DNA of 64,000 nt from Corynebacterium lowii (GTDB taxonomy: Bacteria; Actinomycetota; Actinomycetes; Mycobacteriales; Mycobacteriaceae): NCBI RefSeq assembly GCF_001412085.1, contig NZ_LKEV01000001.1, positions 496,001-560,000 on the forward strand, in the 5' to 3' direction. The translations under genes and the position numbers were made by a program. The notes beneath the pieces are model-generated. The model was given only the letters and a program-made list of their open reading frames with translations. It did not search any database and had not been told where the DNA came from. Of this stretch, positions 3,829 to 55,172 are shown piece by piece (position 1 is the stretch's first letter; the number at the start of each line of letters is the position of its first letter).

Positions 3829-5151
3829 ATGAGCGTGGCCGAGGGGCTACCCTTGGCCACTATGGTTGGAAACCTGCTGCGTAGTCCCCGCCGTCGATCT
3901 ATGGCGGTGGCCGCTTTCGGCACGGTGGTGGAGTGGTATGACTTCTCCCTTTTCTTTTATGTTTCCACGTATCTTGCCGTAGCTTTTTATGCGCCCTACG
4001 AGGGGTCTTTTCTTCTATCACTCGCCACGGGGGCGGTGGGTTTTCTCTTTAGGCCCCTGGGTGCGATGGTCTTTGGGCACATTGGAGATCGCCTGGGCAG
4101 GCGGCAGGCCTTGGTTATTTCCGCAGGTCTCATGGCAATATCTATGTTCGGCATTGCGCTCATGCCCACGCATGAGGTGATGGGAGGATGGGCCGCCGCG
4201 GGAGTGGTGCTGCTGCGTTGTCTGGCGGGATTTTCCGTGGGGGCGGAATACACCGGAATTATGGTGTATTTGATGGAATCCGCCCGCGATGATCGCCGTG
4301 GTTTTGCCGCGAGTTGGGCTGCCGCAAACTCCGAGGTGGGAGGACTCTTAGCGGTGGGGCTCAGCGCGGGATTGGCCGCCGTACTTTCGCCCGAGAATAT
4401 GCAGGGGTGGGGCTGGCGGCTGCTTTTTATCATCGGTGGTCTCTTGGCCGCGGCCATGATTCCGCTGCGCAGGCTCATGGTAGAAACGGATTCTTTTAAC
4501 GAACAGCAGGAAAAGAAGCAGCCCGCGTCCCCGCTGATTGAGGTGCTGCGCACTCATCCCCGCGCGGTTCTCGTGGCTTTTCTCATCTCTACGGTGGGCT
4601 CGGCCACGTACTTCCTCAACATCACCTATGTGCCCTCGTACCTCGATGAGGCCACGGATTTTGATACCTCGGAGTCGCTTTTCTTGGGAGCCTTGGCCGC
4701 CGTGGTGGTCATCGCTGTGACCCCCTTCGTGGGCCTAGCGGCAGATCGCTATGGTCGGCGAATCTGCTTTGTGCTCATCGGCCTTCTCGCCGTGGGCGGG
4801 GCGATACCGGCCTATCTGCTTTTCCAGGGAGCGAGCACGCAGTTGGCCCTCATCGGTATAGCGGTGCTGGCTATCCCGGCGGCGGGATGGTCGGCGGTGG
4901 CGGCCTCTGCGGTTCCAGAGCAGTTCTCAGCCTCCGGGCGCTTTTCCGGTATGGCCATTGGCTATAACCTGGCGGTAGCGCTCTTCGGTGGGTTCTCCCC
5001 GATGATCGTGACCTGGCTGATGGATAGCACCGGCAATCCCCTCGCTCCTGCCTACTACGCGGCCATTCTGTGCGCCCTGGCCGGGATACCGGCGATCATG
5101 CTCATGCGGGAGCGGGCGCGAGTACCACTAGGAGTAATTGATGGAAACTAA
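3829..5151 (+). CDS. MFS transporter, metabolite:H+ symporter (MHS/ProP-like) family
   Basis: 440 residues and 12 predicted membrane segments. The N-terminal AFGTVVEWYDFSLFFY motif is the hallmark of the metabolite:proton symporter family (ProP, KgtP, ShiA); the loop 2-3 motif GHIGDRLGRRQAL and the repeat LAADRYGRRICF confirm MFS. Members import compatible solutes or organic acids with protons. The start is three bases after the preceding stop; a later Met at residue 12 is possible because no clear ribosome site precedes the first ATG. The substrate is not assignable. Confidence 0.88.
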   Translation: MSVAEGLPLATMVGNLLRSPRRRSMAVAAFGTVVEWYDFSLFFYVSTYLAVAFYAPYEGSFLLSLATGAVGFLFRPLGAMVFGHIGDRLGRRQALVISAGLMAISMFGIALMPTHEVMGGWAAAGVVLLRCLAGFSVGAEYTGIMVYLMESARDDRRGFAASWAAANSEVGGLLAVGLSAGLAAVLSPENMQGWGWRLLFIIGGLLAAAMIPLRRLMVETDSFNEQQEKKQPASPLIEVLRTHPRAVLVAFLISTVGSATYFLNITYVPSYLDEATDFDTSESLFLGALAAVVVIAVTPFVGLAADRYGRRICFVLIGLLAVGGAIPAYLLFQGASTQLALIGIAVLAIPAAGWSAVAASAVPEQFSASGRFSGMAIGYNLAVALFGGFSPMIVTWLMDSTGNPLAPAYYAAILCALAGIPAIMLMRERARVPLGVIDGN

Positions 5152-5650
5152 GCGGTTGATTCTGCGTCCGTGGCAGGAAGAAGATAGTGCGGAACTATTC
5201 CGCTACGCCTCTGATCCTCTCGTGGGGCCGCGGGCGGGCTGGCCGGTGCACGAGAGCGTGGAAGATAGCCGCGCAAGCATCGCGGGAGTATTGAGCGAGC
5301 CGGGGACCTACGCCATCGTGCTTAAGGAGACGGGCCTGCCGATTGGTTCCATCTCTTTGCATACCGGCAGCGCCACCGAGCTCACCGATAGCCCCGATGA
5401 GGCCGAGCTTGGCTATTGGGTGGGCGTTCCTTATTGGGGCCAGGGAATTATGCACGAGGCCGCCCGCCGCCTTATCCGTTATGCGGTGGAGGAACAGGGA
5501 ATCACGGTGCTGTGGTGTAGCTCCAACGCCGATAATGCTCAATCACAGCGGGTACAGGAGAAACTGGGCTTCCGCCCGCACAGCCGTACTCAGGGCAAAG
5601 AGGGTGAGCAGGGCAAGGTCATCATGAGTCTGCCCCTTAAGCGCTGCTAG
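5141..5650 (+). CDS. GNAT family N-acetyltransferase (RimJ/RimL-like)
   Basis: 169 residues. METKRLILRPWQEEDSAELF is the typical start of Acetyltransf_3 proteins; the acetyl-CoA loop appears as ELGYWVGVPYWGQGIMHEA near residue 88, and the C-terminal VQEKLGFRPHS matches the usual NxxSxxVLEKLGF motif. ATG 5141 is chosen over an in-frame TTG at 5138 because GGAG lies at 5131-5134. It overlaps the MFS gene by 11 bases, so it is co-translated, and overlaps the convergent permease by four bases. The target (ribosomal protein, antibiotic or metabolite) is unknown. Confidence 0.88.
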   Translation: METKRLILRPWQEEDSAELFRYASDPLVGPRAGWPVHESVEDSRASIAGVLSEPGTYAIVLKETGLPIGSISLHTGSATELTDSPDEAELGYWVGVPYWGQGIMHEAARRLIRYAVEEQGITVLWCSSNADNAQSQRVQEKLGFRPHSRTQGKEGEQGKVIMSLPLKRC

Positions 5651-10361: not shown

Positions 10362-10832
10362 TCACCCCACAAGCCGAGAAAACTGAGCGAAGGCCACTAA
10401 GAGGCTTGCCAGGGCGATGAACACCAGCAGCGCCCCAGCCAAAAACCGCTGCTCGGGAGCTTCGGGAGCGCTAGCAGGATGGGAAGCCGTAGAAGCGCCC
10501 CCAATACGACGTCGATAAGCAAAGCCCAGGGCCACGGCCAGCCCCGCCCCGACGAGGTTCCCGGTGGCCACCTGCTGCACCACGGCGAAGAGGCAGAAGG
10601 GAAACGTCCAGGTGCTCTCCGTCCCAATCAGATGCAGCACGGCCGCCATGAGTATCCCCAAAAATGCCTGGGCAAAGGAGAGGGCGGCGATGGGGTCGGT
10701 CAGGAGCGCGCGCATGTCGGTGCCCGCCCCGATTCCCACCACTCCGGCGAAGAGGAGGAGGGCGGTGGCGCTGAGCAGCCAATACCAGATGATAATGGTG
10801 GCAAGGCGTTGGGGATTACTCAGCAGACTCAT
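10362..10832 (-). CDS. Small membrane protein, four predicted helices
   Basis: 156 residues with four hydrophobic helices (about residues 14-36, 48-68, 80-105 and 133-155) and an Ala/Pro-rich cytoplasmic loop before the last one. No catalytic or transport motif is recognised. Its start overlaps the end of the RpiR-type regulator gene by 17 bases on the same strand, so it is translationally coupled to it. Placement suggests a link to the sugar locus, but no function is assigned. Confidence 0.7.
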   Translation of the reverse strand: MSLLSNPQRLATIIIWYWLLSATALLLFAGVVGIGAGTDMRALLTDPIAALSFAQAFLGILMAAVLHLIGTESTWTFPFCLFAVVQQVATGNLVGAGLAVALGFAYRRRIGGASTASHPASAPEAPEQRFLAGALLVFIALASLLVAFAQFSRLVG

Positions 10833-24855: not shown

Positions 24856-25053
24856 ATGAATAATAAAAACGAACCCGTGGCCGGCAACTTTTTTGATGCC
24901 ACCGATGCCGAGCTTGTAAGCCTCCTCATGGCCGACCCCAAACAGTACTTTCGCAAGTATCCCAATCCGGCGTGGGAGCTGCGGGCCCTTGATGAGCTTG
25001 AGCCTTGGCGGAAGCGCCGCAAGGAGCGCAAGCGCCGGTGGTGGTGGAGCTAA
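24856..25053 (+). CDS. Small basic-tailed hypothetical protein
   Basis: 65 residues. ATG 24856 follows GGGAGGAAAGCA, a strong ribosome site. The middle ATDAELVSLLMADPKQYFRK resembles the start of phage-type or replication-associated small proteins only vaguely. The C-terminus is very basic and aromatic (RKRRKERKRRWWWS), suggesting nucleic acid or membrane contact. It sits between the GAF-like gene and guaA. Family not recognised. Confidence 0.6.
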   Translation: MNNKNEPVAGNFFDATDAELVSLLMADPKQYFRKYPNPAWELRALDELEPWRKRRKERKRRWWWS

Positions 25054-25095
25054 GGGGGTGAGAGCCTCGCTCTAGGGGAATTGACACCCCTCGGG

Positions 25096-25101
25096 TAGGG
25101 T
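25096..25101 (+). promoter_or_regulatory. -10 hexamer for a probable leaderless guaA mRNA
   Basis: TAGGGT lies eight bases before the GTG start codon of guaA, and no ribosome-binding site is present. A TTGACA at 25081-25086 is too close to serve as its -35. Confidence 0.45.
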
Positions 25102-25109
25102 AATGGGCT

Positions 25110-26690
25110 GTGACTCAAGCGCAGCAGACTCATCTCCCCAGCCCGGTTCTCGTTGTCGATTTTGGTGCCCAGTACGCGCAGCTCATTGCCCGCCGCGTGC
25201 GCGAGGCCCGCATGTACTCCGAGGTAGTGCCGCATACGATCACGGCGGCGGAGGTTAAGGAAAAGAACCCCGCTGCCTTGGTTCTTTCCGGCGGTCCCTC
25301 CTCCGTGTACGCGGAGGGTGCCCCCTCCCTGGACCCGGAGATCTTCGATCTGGGCCTGCCTATTTTTGGTATCTGCTACGGCTTCCAGTTGATGACCAAT
25401 GCCCTGGGCGGCGAGGTGGCCGCCACCGGTCAACGCGAGTATGGCCGCACGGACATGGAGGTTTCCGGCGGCAACCTGCACCGCGGCTTCGAAGTCACGC
25501 ACAAGGTGTGGATGAGCCACGGTGATTCCGTGGCCCAGGCACCGGAGGGCTTCGAGGTCACGGCGACCACGGCGGGCGCGCCGGTGGCGGCCTTTGAGAA
25601 CCCTGCCAAGCGTATGGCCGGCGTGCAGTATCACCCCGAGGTGCTGCACTCCCCGCATGGTCAGGAGGTGCTCACGCGCTTCCTCACCGAGATCGCGGGC
25701 CTGCCGCAGAACTGGACCGCCGATAATATTGCCCAGCAGCTCATTGACTCCGTGCGCGAGCAGGTGGGCCCCGAGGGGCGTGCCATCTGTGGCCTTTCCG
25801 GCGGCGTCGATTCCGCCGTGGCGGCGGCCTTGGTGCAGCGCGCCATCGGTGATCGCCTCACCTGTATCTTTGTGGATCACGGTCTGCTGCGCCAGGGCGA
25901 GCGCGAGCAGGTGGAGAAGGATTTTGTGGCTTCCACCGGCGCTCGCCTGATTACCGTGGACGAGCGCGGGGCCTTCCTGAATAAGCTGGCCGGGGTGTCC
26001 GAGCCGGAGGCCAAGCGCAAGGCTATTGGTGCGGAGTTCATTCGCTCCTTCGAGCGCGCCGTGGCCGGGGTGCTCGACGGTGCCCCGGAGGGGTCCAGCG
26101 TGGACTTCCTGGTGCAGGGCACCCTGTACCCGGACGTGGTGGAGTCCGGCGGTGGCACCGGCACCGCGAATATCAAGAGCCATCACAACGTGGGCGGGCT
26201 ACCCGATGATGTGGAGTTCACCCTGGTGGAGCCGCTGCGCCTGCTCTTCAAGGATGAGGTGCGCGCCGTCGGCCGCGAGCTGGGCCTGCCGGAGGAGATC
26301 GTGAACCGTCAGCCCTTCCCCGGCCCGGGCCTGGGTATCCGCATCATCGGTGAGGTTACGCAGGAGCGCCTGGAGATTCTGCGGGCCGCCGACGCCATTG
26401 CCCGCGAGGAGCTCACCAATGCCGGGCTCGACGAGCAGATTTGGCAGTGCCCGGTGGTTTTGCTTGCGGACGTCCGCTCGGTGGGCGTGCAGGGCGACGG
26501 CCGCACCTACGGGCACCCCATTGTGTTGCGTCCGGTTGCCTCCGAGGACGCTATGACGGCAGACTGGGTGCGTATTCCCTATGACGTGCTGGAGAAGATT
26601 TCTACGCGCATTACAAACGAGGTAGCAGAGATTAACCGGGTGGTACTGGACGTGACCTCCAAGCCCCCGGCAACGATTGAATGGGAGTAA
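25110..26690 (+). CDS. guaA: GMP synthase (glutamine-hydrolysing)
   Basis: 526 residues. It aminates XMP to GMP. Class I glutamine amidotransferase domain (1-200) with catalytic cysteine in GICYGFQLM and the His/Glu pair in QYHPEV; ATP pyrophosphatase P-loop [13 protein letters not shown] (about 230); C-terminal dimerisation domain with [12 protein letters not shown] and the end [12 protein letters not shown] start without ribosome site, consistent with a leaderless transcript. It completes the guanine branch begun by guaB2/guaB3. Confidence 0.98.
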
Positions 26691-26694
26691 AACG

Positions 26695-27156
26695 ATGAAA
26701 CTGGCAGAGGCACTAGCCGAACGCGCGGAGGCACAGCGCCGCTACGCACAACTTCGGGAGCGCCTCAGGCTGGTGGCGCGGGTGCAAGAGGGCGAGGAGC
26801 CTGGCGAGGACCCCGCTGCCCTGCTGGCCGAGGCCGAGCACCTGTTAGAGCGCATTACCTGGCTGGTACGCCGGATTAATGCCACGAACATGGCGACGCC
26901 CTTTGATAAGGAGCACACGCTCACCGACGCCATCGCCCTGCGCGATGAGGCCAAGGAGCGGCGCACGCTCTATGCCGACCTCGCTAAGGCGGCCAGCACC
27001 CGGCAGGATCGCTATTCCCGCAGCGAGATCCGCTACGTGGCCAGCGTGAATGTGGCCGAGATGCGTGCCCTTATGGATACGGCGGCCAAGGAATATCGCC
27101 AGTGGGATACGGGTATCCAGCAGGTGAATTGGAGCACCGATTTGATCGAGAATTAA
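26695..27156 (+). CDS. DIP1984 family protein (septicolysin-like)
   Basis: 153 residues from ATG 26695, five bases after guaA. MKLAEALAERAEAQRRYAQL, LVRRINATNMATPFD and LTDAIALRDEAKERRTLYADL are the conserved blocks of the DIP1984 family, first described in C. diphtheriae. The protein is largely helical (coiled coil at both ends) and soluble. The family is sometimes annotated septicolysin, but its function is not demonstrated. Probably co-transcribed with guaA. Confidence 0.85.
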   Translation: MKLAEALAERAEAQRRYAQLRERLRLVARVQEGEEPGEDPAALLAEAEHLLERITWLVRRINATNMATPFDKEHTLTDAIALRDEAKERRTLYADLAKAASTRQDRYSRSEIRYVASVNVAEMRALMDTAAKEYRQWDTGIQQVNWSTDLIEN

Positions 27157-27263
27157 AGGCCAGAAGCAGGTAGCCAATTTTTCGCCTTATCAGCGAGCAC
27201 CAGGCTGCGACACGCCAGCCTTTATTGCGTGTCTCCATGGCACCCCGTGGGGCGTATGGGGCA

Positions 27264-27288
27264 GTCGGTTCGAGTCCGGCTCATTTAA
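27264..27288 (+). other. tRNA-like 3' fragment (T-arm plus acceptor-like tail)
   Basis: GTCGG TTCGAGT CCGGC (27264-27280) forms a proper T-arm with a seven-base TTCGAGT loop and a five-pair stem (one G-U pair), followed by TCATTTA and A in the position of the acceptor strand and discriminator. No matching TAAATGA 5' strand, D-arm or anticodon arm is seen upstream. It may be a tRNA-gene remnant left by integration, or chance. The whole interval 27157-27423 holds no gene. Confidence 0.4.
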
Positions 27289-27423
27289 TGACCAAGCCCA
27301 TCACACCGCACAAGGGTACCGCTCACAAATAACAGATTATTACCGGGTGCTGGGATAACCGCGAGAATTGGTGAGGGTGGGTAAGGGGCTTTTCTGGCTA
27401 TGCAGCGCGTAGGGTGGGAGCCT

Positions 27424-27843
27424 ATGAGTGTATCTCTGCGAAACACCGAGGAAATGGCGGTAGTGGTGGCCTATATGGAGGGCCACGCCGCAGGGGTAGT
27501 GGACCTAGCGGAGATATATGAAGAATGGGGATTAGAAAAACTCGGGGGTAATTACACGGATTCGCGCTTGCCCCAGGGCGATGCCTTTTTGCTCGCCGCG
27601 GCGCTGGGAATCGCGGTCGCCCAGGCCAAGGAGGCCGGGAGAGTGGTGGATCTCGCAGAACTCGGTGGCGGGCAGGGGCAGGTACACTTGTACGCCGACG
27701 GCCACCGCATTACCCAGATCGCCACGGCCCTGAAGTACTTTGCGCTCAGCCCCGAGGAACACCGCGTGGCGCAGGAATGGGACGAGGATACCCTGGCCGA
27801 TCTTGCCGACGAGGCCGAGGAACTGCGGGGGAGGTTGGATTAG
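27424..27843 (+). CDS. Hypothetical acidic protein
   Basis: 139 residues from ATG 27424, with GGGAG at 27416-27420; an upstream ATG at 27400 lacks a site. Soluble, acidic and mostly helical, ending EEHRVAQEWDEDTLADLADE plus a short tail. No signal peptide and no recognised motif. It lies between the tRNA-like remnant and a convergent AAA ATPase gene (22 bases apart), in a segment that is not part of the conserved gene order. Confidence 0.55.
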   Translation: MSVSLRNTEEMAVVVAYMEGHAAGVVDLAEIYEEWGLEKLGGNYTDSRLPQGDAFLLAAALGIAVAQAKEAGRVVDLAELGGGQGQVHLYADGHRITQIATALKYFALSPEEHRVAQEWDEDTLADLADEAEELRGRLD

Positions 27844-27865
27844 CGAGCGGACTACCACGGACGGG

Positions 27866-28978
27866 CTAGACCGCGGTGGAACTCCGCACGAACTCGGCAA
27901 AGCCGGGGGCGGTGAACTCTAGAAAACCGTGCTGAGGGGAATCGACCAACCCCTTATCCATGAGGGAGCGGCGCGCCATGCTGATGTCCGTGGTGCGCGC
28001 ACCCATCTGCTTGGCGATGTCGCCGCGCCGCACGGGGCCGTCGCCAAGCTGGGCCATAGCCACCATGATGTCTATTTCCCGTTCGGTGGCCTTCATCCAG
28101 CGCGATCGGAAAAGAGTTTCTTGCGCACTGGAAAAGTCCTCCCGCGCGGTATTCACGTGGGTGGGCAGAATGATTCCGCCGGGGTCGGGGTCTCCGGCGG
28201 CTATCCAGGAGAGGTCGCCTATGAGTTGGAGGAAGTAGGGGTAGCCCGAGGCGAGTCGGAGCGCGGCGTCGGTGGCCTCCGGTGCCCAGTGCACACCGTG
28301 GAGTTCGGCGGGGCGGGTGAGCGCGGTGAGCGAGGCGGTTTCGTCGAGATTGTTGAGGTGGACGTAGCGAAAACGCTCGGCAAAACTCACGGCATCGGTG
28401 ATGACGTCCTGGGTGTGGGAGAGCCCCGCCGTGAGAGCGATGAGGGGGAGGTCGGGGTTTTCCGATTGCATGTGCTGCCAGGCATAAGCCAGGGCGCGCA
28501 ACCCCTCATGGTCGGCGGCTTGAATCTCATCTATGAGAATCACCAGGCCCTTGTGGGAGTTTTTCTGGGCACTCTCACCAGCTTTTTCCAGCACCGCCTG
28601 TAATTGACGCCCCCACCCAGCGCGAACGGGGCTTTCTTGTGTTTTATTATTGAGGGTTACCCCGGCGAAGGAGAAGGAGGCGGTGTCTGTCCACCGATGT
28701 GCATAGCGGGAGAACTGCGAAAGGAGTTCTTCAAGGAAGTTCCCGTCACCGGCGGTGACCCACACCGTATGTAGGCCAAGGCGCTCGGCCTCGTGCTGAG
28801 CGGTGCGCAAAAGGGATGTTTTGCCCACGCCGCGCGGCCCCACGAATACCTGGATGCGTCCCTCCAAGCGGGGAAAGGAAACCAGCATGGCCAGGCTGCG
28901 CTGAATGGAGGTGAGCTGCTTATCGCGTCCAATGATCTCGCGGGCCACGGCTCCGGGGGTATAGGGGCTCGGCTGCAT
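27866..28978 (-). CDS. AAA-family ATPase with C-terminal winged helix (Orc1/Cdc6-like architecture)
   Basis: 370 residues. Walker A GPRGVGKTS at about 47-55, Walker B LVILIDEIQAADH at about 148-160, sensor-1-like LIALTAGLSH, and an arginine finger candidate near FRYVHLNNLDE. The C-terminal 80 residues form a winged helix (EIDIMVAMAQLGDGPVRRGD and following), probably binding DNA. The N-terminal IIGRDKQLTSIQRSL resembles AAA_16/Orc1-type proteins. A 19-bp perfect palindrome lies at its promoter. It may be a regulator or DNA-maintenance ATPase of a mobile segment; role unknown. Confidence 0.8.
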   Translation of the reverse strand: MQPSPYTPGAVAREIIGRDKQLTSIQRSLAMLVSFPRLEGRIQVFVGPRGVGKTSLLRTAQHEAERLGLHTVWVTAGDGNFLEELLSQFSRYAHRWTDTASFSFAGVTLNNKTQESPVRAGWGRQLQAVLEKAGESAQKNSHKGLVILIDEIQAADHEGLRALAYAWQHMQSENPDLPLIALTAGLSHTQDVITDAVSFAERFRYVHLNNLDETASLTALTRPAELHGVHWAPEATDAALRLASGYPYFLQLIGDLSWIAAGDPDPGGIILPTHVNTAREDFSSAQETLFRSRWMKATEREIDIMVAMAQLGDGPVRRGDIAKQMGARTTDISMARRSLMDKGLVDSPQHGFLEFTAPGFAEFVRSSTAV

Positions 28979-28986
28979 GGGGCTAT

Positions 28987-29029
28987 TTTATACATCTTTA
29001 TAGATTGGCGATCTATAAAGATGTATAAA
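28987..29029. promoter_or_regulatory. 19-bp perfect inverted repeat at the AAA ATPase promoter
   Basis: The arm 28987-29005 (TTTATACATCTTTATAGAT) is exactly complementary to 29011-29029, with a five-base centre TGGCG. It is AT-rich in a high-GC region. On the minus strand TAAAAT (28990-28985) follows as a -10, six bases before the ATG at 28978, so the palindrome touches the promoter and is probably an operator, perhaps for the ATPase itself. It holds the sub-repeat TATAAAGA twice. Confidence 0.6.
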
Positions 29030-29037
29030 GAGCGGGG

Positions 29038-29478
29038 CTATCGGCGGGCGTCGGTAGGCGGGGCGTCGATATAGGCCAGCGCCCGCGTGCCGTCCACGTG
29101 GGGGAAGGTGAGGTAGAGCCACCCGGCGCTTGCGGCAAAGAGTAAGGCGCTGCCCCACCAGGGTGCAGGTGCGATGACGGGGGCGAGCATGAGCGCCAGC
29201 CAGAGGAAGAAGAGGGGAAGGAACTGCCAGAGCTGAGGGCGCCAAGGGGCATCCTTTTCTGCGCGATAGGCGCGCACTCGTCCCCGGTAAGGGTGCAGGA
29301 ACGGGAAGGCGATGGCGAGGGCCGAGCACAGCAGTACCCCGAGGAATTGAATCCCGTAGCCGAGGTCGGTGGAGGGCAGCGCCACGGCGGCGGCCCCGAG
29401 CAGGCTAGAACTCAGGCGCACCAGCCCTGGGGTGGGGATGGGGGTGATGCGCGAACGCACATCGGAGTAGGGGAGCAT
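29038..29478 (-). CDS. Small multi-pass membrane protein
   Basis: 146 residues with four hydrophobic segments (about 23-40, 43-62, 85-103 and 106-126), polar ends and PFLHPYRGRVRAYRAEKDAP between helices 2 and 3. No motif is recognised. It starts nine bases after the stop of the AMIN-like lipoprotein gene on the same strand, so the two are probably an operon. The palindrome at 28987-29029 follows its stop. Confidence 0.65.
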   Translation of the reverse strand: MLPYSDVRSRITPIPTPGLVRLSSSLLGAAAVALPSTDLGYGIQFLGVLLCSALAIAFPFLHPYRGRVRAYRAEKDAPWRPQLWQFLPLFFLWLALMLAPVIAPAPWWGSALLFAASAGWLYLTFPHVDGTRALAYIDAPPTDARR

Positions 29479-29487
29479 GAATGCAGG

Positions 29488-30129
29488 TTAGGGCACGAGG
29501 TCGATGACGAGGCGGGTGGGGCCGTCGAGAACCTGCACGGAATAGGGCACCTTTTTACTCATGCCCACGATGAATTGGGAGCGCCCCTCGAAGGTGCCTG
29601 CGCTGATGACGTCGGTGATATTGCCACCGTCGGTGGGGGTAATGCGATCCAGATGGGGTTCCTCGATGCCGAGGTCAAAGGGATAAACGGTGCCGTCAAT
29701 GCTCACGGTGAGGGCGGTGGCACCGTGGTACTTGATGGGGTTACCGGAGCCTTGCTGAGTGGGGTGGTCGGTGTAGTCCACGTACCAGCCGGGTTTTCCT
29801 TCCCCGCGCATTTCAAAGACCACGCGGTCAAAGCCCTCGTGCACCCCGGTACGCATGGTGGTCACCACGAGTTCGGAGGGTTCTGAGGGGCGCATGGTTT
29901 TCATGGAAATGTCGGCATCGCCCAGGGGTGTCAGGCCCGCTCCGGTGGTGGCCTGGGCACCGGTGCTTTCACCGTCGGAGGAACGTTGAGTGGCGGCCTG
30001 GGAGGGGGTGGTCGAGGTATCGGATTCCGTGCCGCAGGCGGCGAGTAGAAGGGACCCCGCCGTCACTATCGCTGCCACGCTAAGGTGGCGGGCGCGGCGG
30101 GGCGCGGAGGCGTCGATAAGCGCTGACAT
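29488..30129 (-). CDS. Lipoprotein with AMIN-like domain
   Basis: 213 residues from ATG 30129; an upstream extension to 30189 is rejected because it precedes the signal peptide. Lipobox LLLAACG with a Ser/Thr/Gln-rich spacer to about residue 70, then an AMIN-like beta domain: GFDRVVFEMRGEGKPGWYVD, ALTVSIDGTVYPFDL and VQVLDGPTRLVIDLVP. Such domains bind cell-wall glycans or guide periplasmic proteins. TACGGT lies six bases before the start, so the mRNA may be leaderless. Located outside the membrane, lipid-anchored. Confidence 0.8.
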   Translation of the reverse strand: MSALIDASAPRRARHLSVAAIVTAGSLLLAACGTESDTSTTPSQAATQRSSDGESTGAQATTGAGLTPLGDADISMKTMRPSEPSELVVTTMRTGVHEGFDRVVFEMRGEGKPGWYVDYTDHPTQQGSGNPIKYHGATALTVSIDGTVYPFDLGIEEPHLDRITPTDGGNITDVISAGTFEGRSQFIVGMSKKVPYSVQVLDGPTRLVIDLVP

Positions 30130-30179
30130 ACTTTTACCGTATACCGTGCGATGAAATATTGTGAAATACATATGGCAAA

Positions 30180-30773
30180 ATGAGACCAAAGTTTAAGGAA
30201 AATGTGACACTCAATGTGAATTGCACCTACGGTCACGGCGAACCCCTGGGGAGCCTGCGGTACCAATTCCATCCCGGCACCATGTACGCCCTCACCGGCC
30301 CCAACGGCAGCGGTAAATCAACTCTGCTGGCCACCATCGCGGGGGAACTCGCGCCGCTCGACGGCGAGGTGCTTTACGACGCCACCCCCACGAGCACGGG
30401 CACCACGGGGGTGTCGCTCATCGCGGAGTCGGTATTCTTCCCCGATCTCACCGTGGGCGAACACCTGGACCTGTTGAAACTCAGAAGAGAAAACATCGTG
30501 GAGCCGTGGGCGCTAAGCAATATCCTCAACGCACCCCTGTGGGCGCTCTCCTCTGGGCAGCGCCAGCGCGCTTATCTGGGAATGCAGCTCGGCGCGCACG
30601 CCGAGGTATTGCTTATCGACGAACCCGAGCGTCACCTGGATAGCGATTGGACGGACTTTCTCATCGAACATCTGAGATACTTAGGCGAGCAGGGGGTATG
30701 CGTGCTGGTGGCCACCCACTCCCCGCGGGTGATGGAGGGCTGCGATGAGGTGCTGCGCCTGGGGGAGGAGTGA
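30180..30773 (+). CDS. ABC transporter ATP-binding protein (short form)
   Basis: 197 residues. Walker A GPNGSGKSTLLATIAGEL at about 40, signature LSSGQRQRAYLGMQLG near 120, Walker B VLLIDEPERHLDSDW, H-loop ATHSP. ATG 30180 has no ribosome site; GTG 30204 with AAGGA just upstream is a plausible true start. Divergent from the AMIN-like gene. The next gene begins in its stop codon (TGATG). Substrate unknown. Confidence 0.8.
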   Translation: MRPKFKENVTLNVNCTYGHGEPLGSLRYQFHPGTMYALTGPNGSGKSTLLATIAGELAPLDGEVLYDATPTSTGTTGVSLIAESVFFPDLTVGEHLDLLKLRRENIVEPWALSNILNAPLWALSSGQRQRAYLGMQLGAHAEVLLIDEPERHLDSDWTDFLIEHLRYLGEQGVCVLVATHSPRVMEGCDEVLRLGEE

Positions 30774-31915
30774 TGTTTGCGCTGATAGATAAGGCCAGCG
30801 ATTATCTGTCCCCGATCTTCCTCGGCAGCATCGTGGCGGCGCTGTTGGGAGGCATCTTTGTACGTGGCGTGCAACCGGGGGATTCCGGGGAGATCGTGGC
30901 CGCCCCGCTGCGTTGGGCGGCGGTCCTGGCGGTGGCGGTGCTGCTGCTGGTGCTCGCGGAAAGGCTCGTTCCGCTGCGGGGTATCTCCCAGGAAAAGTGG
31001 GTGTGGCATTACCGGCCGCGCGCCAGGTTGCCGCGCACCGATAGCGTGACCGCGATTCACCTGGGCATAAGCGCTGTGGTGGGGGCCTTTCTCGGCGCGG
31101 CGGCGGGGCACAGCCTGTGGGCTGCGGGAGCGATGGCGGTTGCTGCGGTGGTGGCTCGGGGAATGGTGGGATATGTGAGGGCGCGCGGCGATGATCTGCC
31201 CACCTTGCTGCGCGCCGGGCGCACGCGGAAATTGATGGAAAACCTCTCCGGGCTCCAAGACACGGAGGTGGTGGCCGATCTTTTGGCTATCCACTGGCTG
31301 CGAGGGCGTTCACGCTGGGGTTCTGGTGCTGGTTCTCGTGCTGGGTGGAGGCGTGGTGCTGCGCGCGGAGGGAGCAGGGGAGGCTCCGCGACGCCCCTGG
31401 GCTTGGCGTGGCGCAGACTGTGGCGTCGCTCGTATCTTTTACTGGGCGCGCTGGCCGTGCTGATCTGGCACTGCGCACTCGCCCCGGCCTATGGGGCCGG
31501 GGGTGCCTTTATCACCGTGGCTGCCTGGGGTTTTCTGTGCGCCGGGGTGTATCGGGCCGCGGACTTTCGTCGCATGGGTGTAGATTCTGCCTCGCGTTGG
31601 GTGTTTTTATTGTGCGCCGTGGGGCTGGGTTCGGCTGGATTGCTGGGTACCGCCGCTTTGTTGGGTTCGGTGGGGCTGCTGGGCCTGGATGGGGTGCTGG
31701 GCTCGGCGGGCCTGGGCGTATCCGTGGCCTCGTGGAAGGTACTGGCGGTGCCACTGGTGTGGTTCTGGATCGGTTGGCGGCGCGGGGAGCCCGCGCGGGT
31801 GGATACCTTCTCCTTCTTTGATACCGGCATGGGCGTAAGCTTTTCGCCCGAGATTCTGGGCTATTACTTGCGCGGGCTGTGGCCGCTGATTCCCCTCGCA
31901 CTGATATTAAATTAG
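30773..31915 (+). CDS. Unusual membrane protein coupled to the ABC ATPase
   Basis: 380 residues from ATG 30773. About eight hydrophobic segments. A central loop (about 188-214) is rich in Gly, Arg and Ser (SRWGSGAGSRAGWRRGAARG) and could not cross the membrane; a later segment (about 277-315) is built of repeated GLLG/SAGL units. It is not a recognisable ABC-2 or FtsX permease, but overlap with the ATPase gene implies a joint exporter. The loop may come from local DNA expansion. Family unknown. Confidence 0.65.
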   Translation: MFALIDKASDYLSPIFLGSIVAALLGGIFVRGVQPGDSGEIVAAPLRWAAVLAVAVLLLVLAERLVPLRGISQEKWVWHYRPRARLPRTDSVTAIHLGISAVVGAFLGAAAGHSLWAAGAMAVAAVVARGMVGYVRARGDDLPTLLRAGRTRKLMENLSGLQDTEVVADLLAIHWLRGRSRWGSGAGSRAGWRRGAARGGSRGGSATPLGLAWRRLWRRSYLLLGALAVLIWHCALAPAYGAGGAFITVAAWGFLCAGVYRAADFRRMGVDSASRWVFLLCAVGLGSAGLLGTAALLGSVGLLGLDGVLGSAGLGVSVASWKVLAVPLVWFWIGWRRGEPARVDTFSFFDTGMGVSFSPEILGYYLRGLWPLIPLALILN

Positions 31916-36440: not shown

Positions 36441-36475
36441 GCCTCGCTGCGTTGATGGAATCAACGCAGCGAGGC
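36441..36475. terminator. Intercistronic hairpin between bacteriocin and permease genes
   Basis: A perfect 16-bp inverted repeat, GCCTCGCTGCGTTGAT (36441-36456) and its complement at 36460-36475, with a GGA loop. It lies 13 bases after the bacteriocin stop and before the permease start. On the minus strand no T-run follows, only CTTTA, so partial termination or mRNA protection is more likely than full termination. Confidence 0.65.
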
Positions 36476-55128: not shown

Positions 55129-55172
55129 AAGGGCGGTTCCCCTGTGCTAGAGGGGAACCGCCCTTTTGTTGT
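55129..55172 (+). terminator. Strong rho-independent terminator
   Basis: AAGGGCGGTTCCCCT (55129-55143) pairs perfectly with 55151-55165 over 15 bp, loop of seven, followed by TTGTTGTG. It ends the small membrane protein transcript and also faces the convergent membrane-protein gene at 55214. Confidence 0.9.

Follow-up and report, generated by a model that had tools for sequence, protein, structure and literature searches.

A private four-box operator at the promoter of an AAA+/winged-helix ATPase gene in Corynebacterium: a probably self-repressing, dispensable single-gene unit

Among the closest described systems, Orc1/Cdc6 initiators have their binding repeats adjoining the gene, and in iteron-regulated plasmid initiators and parC-type centromeres tandem boxes about one helical turn apart lie over the own promoter. 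Insertion sequences and solo-LTR-type remnants are compact units with direct repeats, with solo repeats found at related sites. At the level of protein structure, the archaeal ATPases PAB2304 (2qen) and SSO1545 (2fna) share the three-part fold of the ATPase studied here over nearly the whole chain, with 16 and 14% identity, respectively; in the literature covered, which did not extend to the SSO1545 structure paper, we met no description of an operator or of autoregulation for either of them. The mycobacterial signal-transduction ATPase IniR has an SSO1545-like core and binds a promoter; 818 aa long, it carries a MalT-like domain together with an SdiA-like DNA-binding domain, and it activates iniBAC (PMC5760070). 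A search of titles and abstract starts, with few subscription journals included, returned nothing describing the operators or units presented below.

The DNA stretch that was analysed (the window, 64 kb) belongs to a 2.35-Mb genome of the genus Corynebacterium. On its minus strand, at 27866–28978 (stop codon 27866–27868, ATG at 28978), lies a gene encoding an ATPase of 370 aa, whose start codon aligns with the starts of its homologues and whose closest relative is found in a genome of the same genus (G064). In minus-strand order, a 146-aa gene (stop at 29038) is followed by a palindrome (28987–29029) and then by the ATPase gene; an Imm68 immunity-protein gene (27400–27840, plus strand, Pfam 81.1 bits) adjoins the latter. 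The protein belongs to the ATPase_2/AAA_16 archaeal-type AAA+ ATPases, as it exceeds the Pfam gathering scores of both AAA_16 (46.2 bits, cut-off 32.6) and ATPase_2 (38.5 bits, cut-off 33.2), and the relevant Pfam families on this single ORF are ATPase-type domains and a weak TrmB-type helix-turn-helix only. Walker A residues R49, G52 and K53 and Walker B residues D150 and E151 are invariant in 48 sequences, and are accompanied by a C-terminal winged helix-turn-helix. In the AlphaFold model (mcd12d0d65a57, mean pLDDT 93.2), this winged helix comprises helices 318–324 and 329–341, the second being the recognition helix (27956–27994, minus strand).

The structure-based search that had been suggested by the first-pass annotation, made from the DNA letters alone, was run with VIA-align and returned 2qen as the top match (Z 23.8, rmsd 4.1, 317 aligned), followed by 2fna (Z 22.9, rmsd 3.5, 312 aligned) and the archaeal ORC2 1w5t_A (Z 21.7, rmsd 5.1, 339 aligned), with Cdc6/Orc1 and STAND/NLR proteins at lower ranks (Z 16–20 for the STAND/NLR proteins). 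By this ranking, the fold of the modelled ATPase is archaeal STAND/Orc1-Cdc6-like. The search of the PDB by sequence gave a best E value of 0.018. The DNA-binding-type C-terminus proposed in the first-pass annotation is supported by the winged helix in the model and by the structural matches, while its Orc1/Cdc6-like layout holds at the level of the fold (AAA+ plus winged helix, as in 1w5t_A) and not at the level of the sequence model TIGR02928, where the score of 14.3 bits is far below the cut-off of 181.3.

The palindrome (28987–29029) consists of two 19-bp arms (28987–29005 and 29011–29029) with a 5-nt spacer; the arms are 100% complementary, so that the exact match over 38 bases reported earlier stands, with the 38 paired bases contained within 43. 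The inverted-repeat search shows it to be the longest perfect inverted repeat of the window (loop up to 10), and none of 10 first-order Markov copies of the window had an arm longer than 11 bp, compared with the 19 observed. Each arm contains TTTATA twice, 10 bp apart, and the whole site therefore reads as four putative operator boxes, two forward and two reverse: box 1 (28987–28992, plus strand; outer, nearest the gene), box 2 (28997–29002, plus strand; inner), box 3 (29014–29019, minus strand; inner) and box 4 (29024–29029, minus strand; outer). The gap from the palindrome to the ATG is 8 bp. Read from the sequence, a likely −10 element, TAAAAT (28985–28990, minus strand), ends 6 nt 5′ of the ATG and overlaps the operator; the overlap with a −10 claimed earlier is supported to this extent, but the sigma-70 consensus scan found no promoter at this site. 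Since such a position of TAAAAT would place the transcription start on the ATG, the ATPase start is likely of the leaderless type, with transcription beginning at the ATG. Further copies of the palindrome in the own genome, which the first-pass annotation had recommended searching for, did not appear: exact matches of the half-palindrome TATACATCTTTATA are the two arms only, with one extra site at 2 mismatches, and the longer pattern TTTATANNTCTTTATA has two extra sites at 2 mismatches, fewer than its reversed control (11).

Some other repeats were also recorded. Two more long perfect inverted repeats, both GC-rich, lie at window positions 36441–36475 (arms 16) and 55129–55165 (arms 15). The word TTGCTTATCGACGCC (up to 1 mismatch) is an abundant repeat with 103 copies in the own genome (50 on the plus and 53 on the minus strand), including window sites near 10508, 33201 and 52292, while its reversed control has 0 matches there; an inverted pair of it stands just upstream of the array of an ATPase paralogue at two loci (L050 and L055). 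A search of Rfam over 25000–31000 gave one microRNA match on the palindrome (E 0.35), which is below the gathering score and was rejected as a chance match.

The operator architecture was established by comparison with homologues. The single-protein search of genome contigs gave no relative, but the search with a closer alignment did; the homologue set is the best 80 of at least 122 confirmed loci, found with two peptide patterns, and the close subfamily is therefore favoured in it. Palindrome and four-box scores were obtained for 79 of these best 80 loci, one (L171) being omitted as it is cut by a contig end. In most of the best 80, the same box plan is found just before the start codon, written in other letters (e.g., GTTATG, TTACAG, TGATAC, CGTATA). 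The inverted-repeat score was above the 95th percentile of controls in 58 of the 79 loci, compared with 27 of 591 control genes, leaving 21 of the 79 below this simple palindrome threshold. A lag of 10 was the best four-box spacing in 69 of the 79 (ties included), and the mean four-box score at this lag was 28.4 of 36, compared with 18.1 for shuffled sequences and with 18.0–19.8 at lags 7–9 and 11–14. A conserved operator over the own promoter region, as expected for an autoregulated DNA-binding protein, is thus present. The earlier proposal to look for the palindrome upstream of homologues is answered in the sense that the layout is kept and the sequence varies.

The ATPase family is larger than this set, with seven matches in the own genome, at least one match in 124 of the 151 genomes searched (own included) and up to 12 in one genome. 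For distant Corynebacterium members, some 6-mer occurs at least three times in the 110 bp upstream in 33 of 46 cases (57 of 398 controls), and at least four times in 22 of 46 (3 of 398 control genes); in the remaining 13 of 46, no 6-mer was found three times upstream. The arrays of these distant paralogues have spacing peaks at 9, 19 and 28 bp and are mostly direct repeats, with words that vary among subgroups and are common mainly to near relatives. One paralogue word of the own genome, TCGTACAGATCGTACA (up to 1 mismatch), has 3 copies in the genome, all upstream of that paralogue. Together with the counts for the window half-site, this suggests that operators are private and not common to several paralogues, as far as tested. 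Homologues are also contained in 118 plasmid records. Among ten homologues from the plasmid and phage collections inspected by eye, seven showed a clear box layout and three (L101, L102 and L103) did not; two-plus-two sites were seen in Curtobacterium, Tsukamurella, Paenarthrobacter and Nocardioides, and tandem boxes in Bacillus, Protochlamydia and Pseudomonas. Phage records yielded one unannotated 5.9-kb scaffold with a homologue, and IMG/VR gave 13 loci with the broad alignment and none with the close alignment. A second subfamily (L307–L364) occurs in many Actinomycetes, where a genome usually has a single listed locus; its helix motif is often nearly constant (GRKPSSLSPARDSL type), and CTA-type repeats are seen upstream by eye.

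Covariation between the recognition helix and the boxes was likewise examined by comparison, in 90 proteins, all of which were kept; the frameshifted L117 and L171 are not among them, and the set includes two same-gene pairs (L039/L119 and L042/L125) and one near-identical pair (L095/L155). Box positions were picked by a score allowing T/G, A, T/C and A/G at the core. All 14 proteins with N or D at residue 330 have G as the fourth core base in each of the two inner boxes; none of the 76 others does, although two of them have G in one inner box. With Gly333, C was present at core base 3 in 11 of 11, compared with 1 of 79 others (L167, whose operator is unresolved), and L132, without Gly333, has C in one box. 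On a tree built from the ATPase domain only, the 330/base trait changes 7 times and the 333/base trait 4–5 times, which means that these traits are not one inherited block. Because this covariation was first seen in the same data that were then counted, we scanned all 370 protein columns, dropping 3 of the 90 rows with an operator score below 22 (L154, L167, L173) and working with an effective number of 57.4 at 80% identity. Core base 4 and base +1 were best predicted by column 330, core base 3 by column 333, and core base 1 together with base −1 by column 334; all three columns lie inside the recognition helix and correspond in the window protein to T330 (27989–27991), S333 (27980–27982) and M334 (27977–27979) on the minus strand. 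The helix does not contain the best columns for the outermost bases −2 and +2, which are 282 and 315. Four sequences that are not part of the set, being less than 95% identical to it, were inspected by eye: the rule for residue 330 held in 4 of 4, while one of them (L300) has Gly333 but T, not C, in the inner boxes. Judged from these alignments, the pattern is what one would expect if a winged helix reads its box. Conserved layout and covariation with the recognition helix together make it very probable that the ATPase binds and, by the position of the site, represses its own promoter. The self-regulated DNA-binding ATPase postulated earlier therefore gains support from the conserved operator, from the box/helix covariation and from the operator lying over a likely core promoter.

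Presence and absence of the unit were compared as well. The syntenic ATPase copy of C. oculi falls into two reading frames at about residue 45, while that of G063 lacks residues 43–278; with the gene decayed in both nearest relatives, it is dispensable there. Direct repeats of 20–58 bp between the upstream region and the sequence after the stop codon were found in 9 of 139 family loci (7 distinct units), while 400 mismatched upstream/downstream pairings gave a direct repeat of at most 13 bp. In L118, L042, L041 and L062, the repeat comprises the operator wholly or for the most part; in L065 it is a part of the operator, and in L119 and L043 it lies outside. Across the genus, 15 of the 242 genomes scanned carry the full operator pattern; in 11 of these, the ATPase or its remains stand beside the operator (a short remnant in G607), in three (G049, G602, G595) there is no ATPase beside it, and in G075 two contigs end at the operator, with no close ATPase in the assembly. 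Identical operators lie on either side of an open ATPase frame in L383 and L384 (66 and 5 bp after the stop), and in L385 two operators with one base different flank the ATPase of G563, which is split by an insertion (about 3836–5200, IS-like by eye). The operator or a part of it is thus copied shortly after the stop in eight units (L118, L042, L041, L062, L065, L383, L384 and L385), and the interval between the operators is taken up by the ATPase in L118 and L384. The integrated element suspected in the first-pass annotation is partly supported, by the direct-repeat-flanked single-gene units in other genomes, and not for the window's own unit, which has no downstream operator copy.

At the menB-menC junction, the unit is present in G038 and G563, one intact solo operator stands before menC in G049, G602 and G595 (with no close ATPase anywhere in these genomes, the best being about 30% identical), the operator is decayed in G002, and G016 has no operator and 16 bp between the genes, i.e., an empty site. 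In G049, G602, G595 and G002, menB and the operator are separated by other DNA, and the history of these sites is accordingly not a simple one. In G049 (L390, 1165–2983), this DNA measures about 1.8 kb, and a second copy of part of the menB 5′ end stands immediately ahead of the operator. Recombination between two operators would explain the solo sites, and insertion into a solo operator the filled ones, the order of events (loss or insertion) not being proven by the pattern. For the unit of G017, the nearest relatives are about 74% identical, too distant to show an empty junction.

The best explanation, which we hold with good confidence, is a DNA-binding ATPase with a private four-box operator, self-repressing and forming a dispensable single-gene unit. 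From the comparisons above, we infer binding, repression, stoichiometry, control by ATP, mobility and a reason for existence as follows. The newly made ATPase (ATP-binding core, lid and C-terminal winged helix) would bind the four boxes over the −10 and shut its own promoter. Four boxes, arranged as a tandem pair one helical turn apart and then mirrored, would fit four winged helices, that is, two dimers or a tetramer, and the ATP state probably controls assembly or oligomerisation, as may be expected from the AAA+ class. Each family member would read a private box, set largely by residues 330, 333 and 334, and several paralogues could thereby share one cell without crosstalk. Gene and operator together would form a dispensable, sometimes decaying unit that comes and goes between otherwise conserved genes and that, in several Corynebacterium species, appears bounded by direct repeats made of the operator or part of it. 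Most likely, this is a selfish or accessory single-gene cassette rather than a defence, initiator or partition system.

The downstream operator copies could also serve as additional regulatory sites (DNA looping) or be left over from tandem duplication, and not mark mobility, which we consider a doubtful but serious possibility: the copy is identical or nearly so to the upstream operator, begins no more than about 22 bp past the stop in 7 of 8 units (66 bp past it in L383), and in L042 and L385 stands just before menC, where it could be the menC promoter. This reading accounts less well for the three genomes with intact solo operators and no close ATPase, for the fourth with its empty menB-menC junction, and for the decayed ATPase genes of the two closest relatives of the window. 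To hypothesize in the opposite direction, a minimal mobile unit, in which the operator doubles as end and attachment site of a single AAA+/wHTH ATPase gene, is a tentative idea that we rate somewhat lower still. The ATPase would pair two operator copies, aided by host recombination or by repair of hairpin breakage; a circle or template carrying operator and ATPase would enter a site with one operator, giving operator-ATPase-operator, and when the unit leaves, a solo operator would remain again. If this were true, private boxes would be site specificities under selection to diverge.

It seems unlikely that the protein is a STAND-type sensor that sits on its operator until phage or stress releases or activates it and that then serves as an effector in defence or stress, with autoregulation as no more than its switch. 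The structural likeness to STAND/NLR proteins, the patchy distribution and plasmid occurrence, the nine annotated plasmid regions in which no partner gene is evident, and the fact that IniR, with its similar core, is a regulator (PMC5760070) speak for it, but Pfam recognised no effector domain in the 370 aa, and matches to defence models are weak and confined to the ATP-binding core (PADLOC best PDC-S01, 19.5 bits, residues 41–208, a model with no curated cut-off). The role in defence considered in the first-pass annotation finds no support beyond such matches.

Even less probable is an Orc1/Cdc6-like initiator with its origin, or a single-protein partition system with its centromere, from an integrated plasmid, the repeats being iterons or centromere as well as operator. 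The fold nearest to archaeal ATPases and Orc1/Cdc6, the iteron-like arrays, the many plasmid records (in pTC1, the gene is third after a ParA gene) and a private specificity that would fit incompatibility pressure are consistent with it; against it stand the number of family matches, which reaches 12 in one genome, the lack of an annotated replication gene in nine plasmid regions (ParA in pTC1 only) and the Orc1/Cdc6 sequence model far from its cut-off. That the palindrome is only a terminator or RNA hairpin of the upstream gene, unrelated to the ATPase, is very improbable and was rejected, since, although it begins 8 bp past that gene's stop codon and folds well as RNA (z −5.3, 0 of 200 shuffles as good), no terminator was called at 28987–29029 and no T-run follows it, its layout is kept upstream of homologues with different neighbour genes, the direct repeats of distant paralogues cannot pair with each other, and the box bases track the recognition helix. 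The outcome that would have spoken against the first-pass annotation, a palindrome absent near homologues and acting as nothing more than a terminator, was not observed.

On the preferred reading of a self-repressing ATPase with a private operator, a common “ATP-binding protein” annotation on plasmids and chromosomes would become a testable system with a named protein, a named target and named residues that seem to choose the target. The helix-to-box code could serve to predict operators of uncharacterised archaeal-type ATPases in bacteria, and mutually orthogonal repressors for use in Actinobacteria could be drawn from the family. Should the direct-repeat units be mobile, they would reveal a transposase-free single-gene element.

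In comparison with known systems, Orc1/Cdc6 initiators (1w5t, 2qby, 2v1u) are alike in combining AAA+ and winged helix (Z 17.8–21.7), while the family described here has several members per genome and falls short of their sequence model. IniR is likewise actinobacterial with a similar core, but it is longer and an activator (PMC5760070). Unlike iteron and parC systems, the window unit is without a replication or partition gene, and the boxes differ among paralogues. Insertion sequences and solo LTRs differ in that the unit is without transposase (none was found by Pfam on the unit's single ORF), integrase or reverse transcriptase, and in that its repeat is the gene's own operator.
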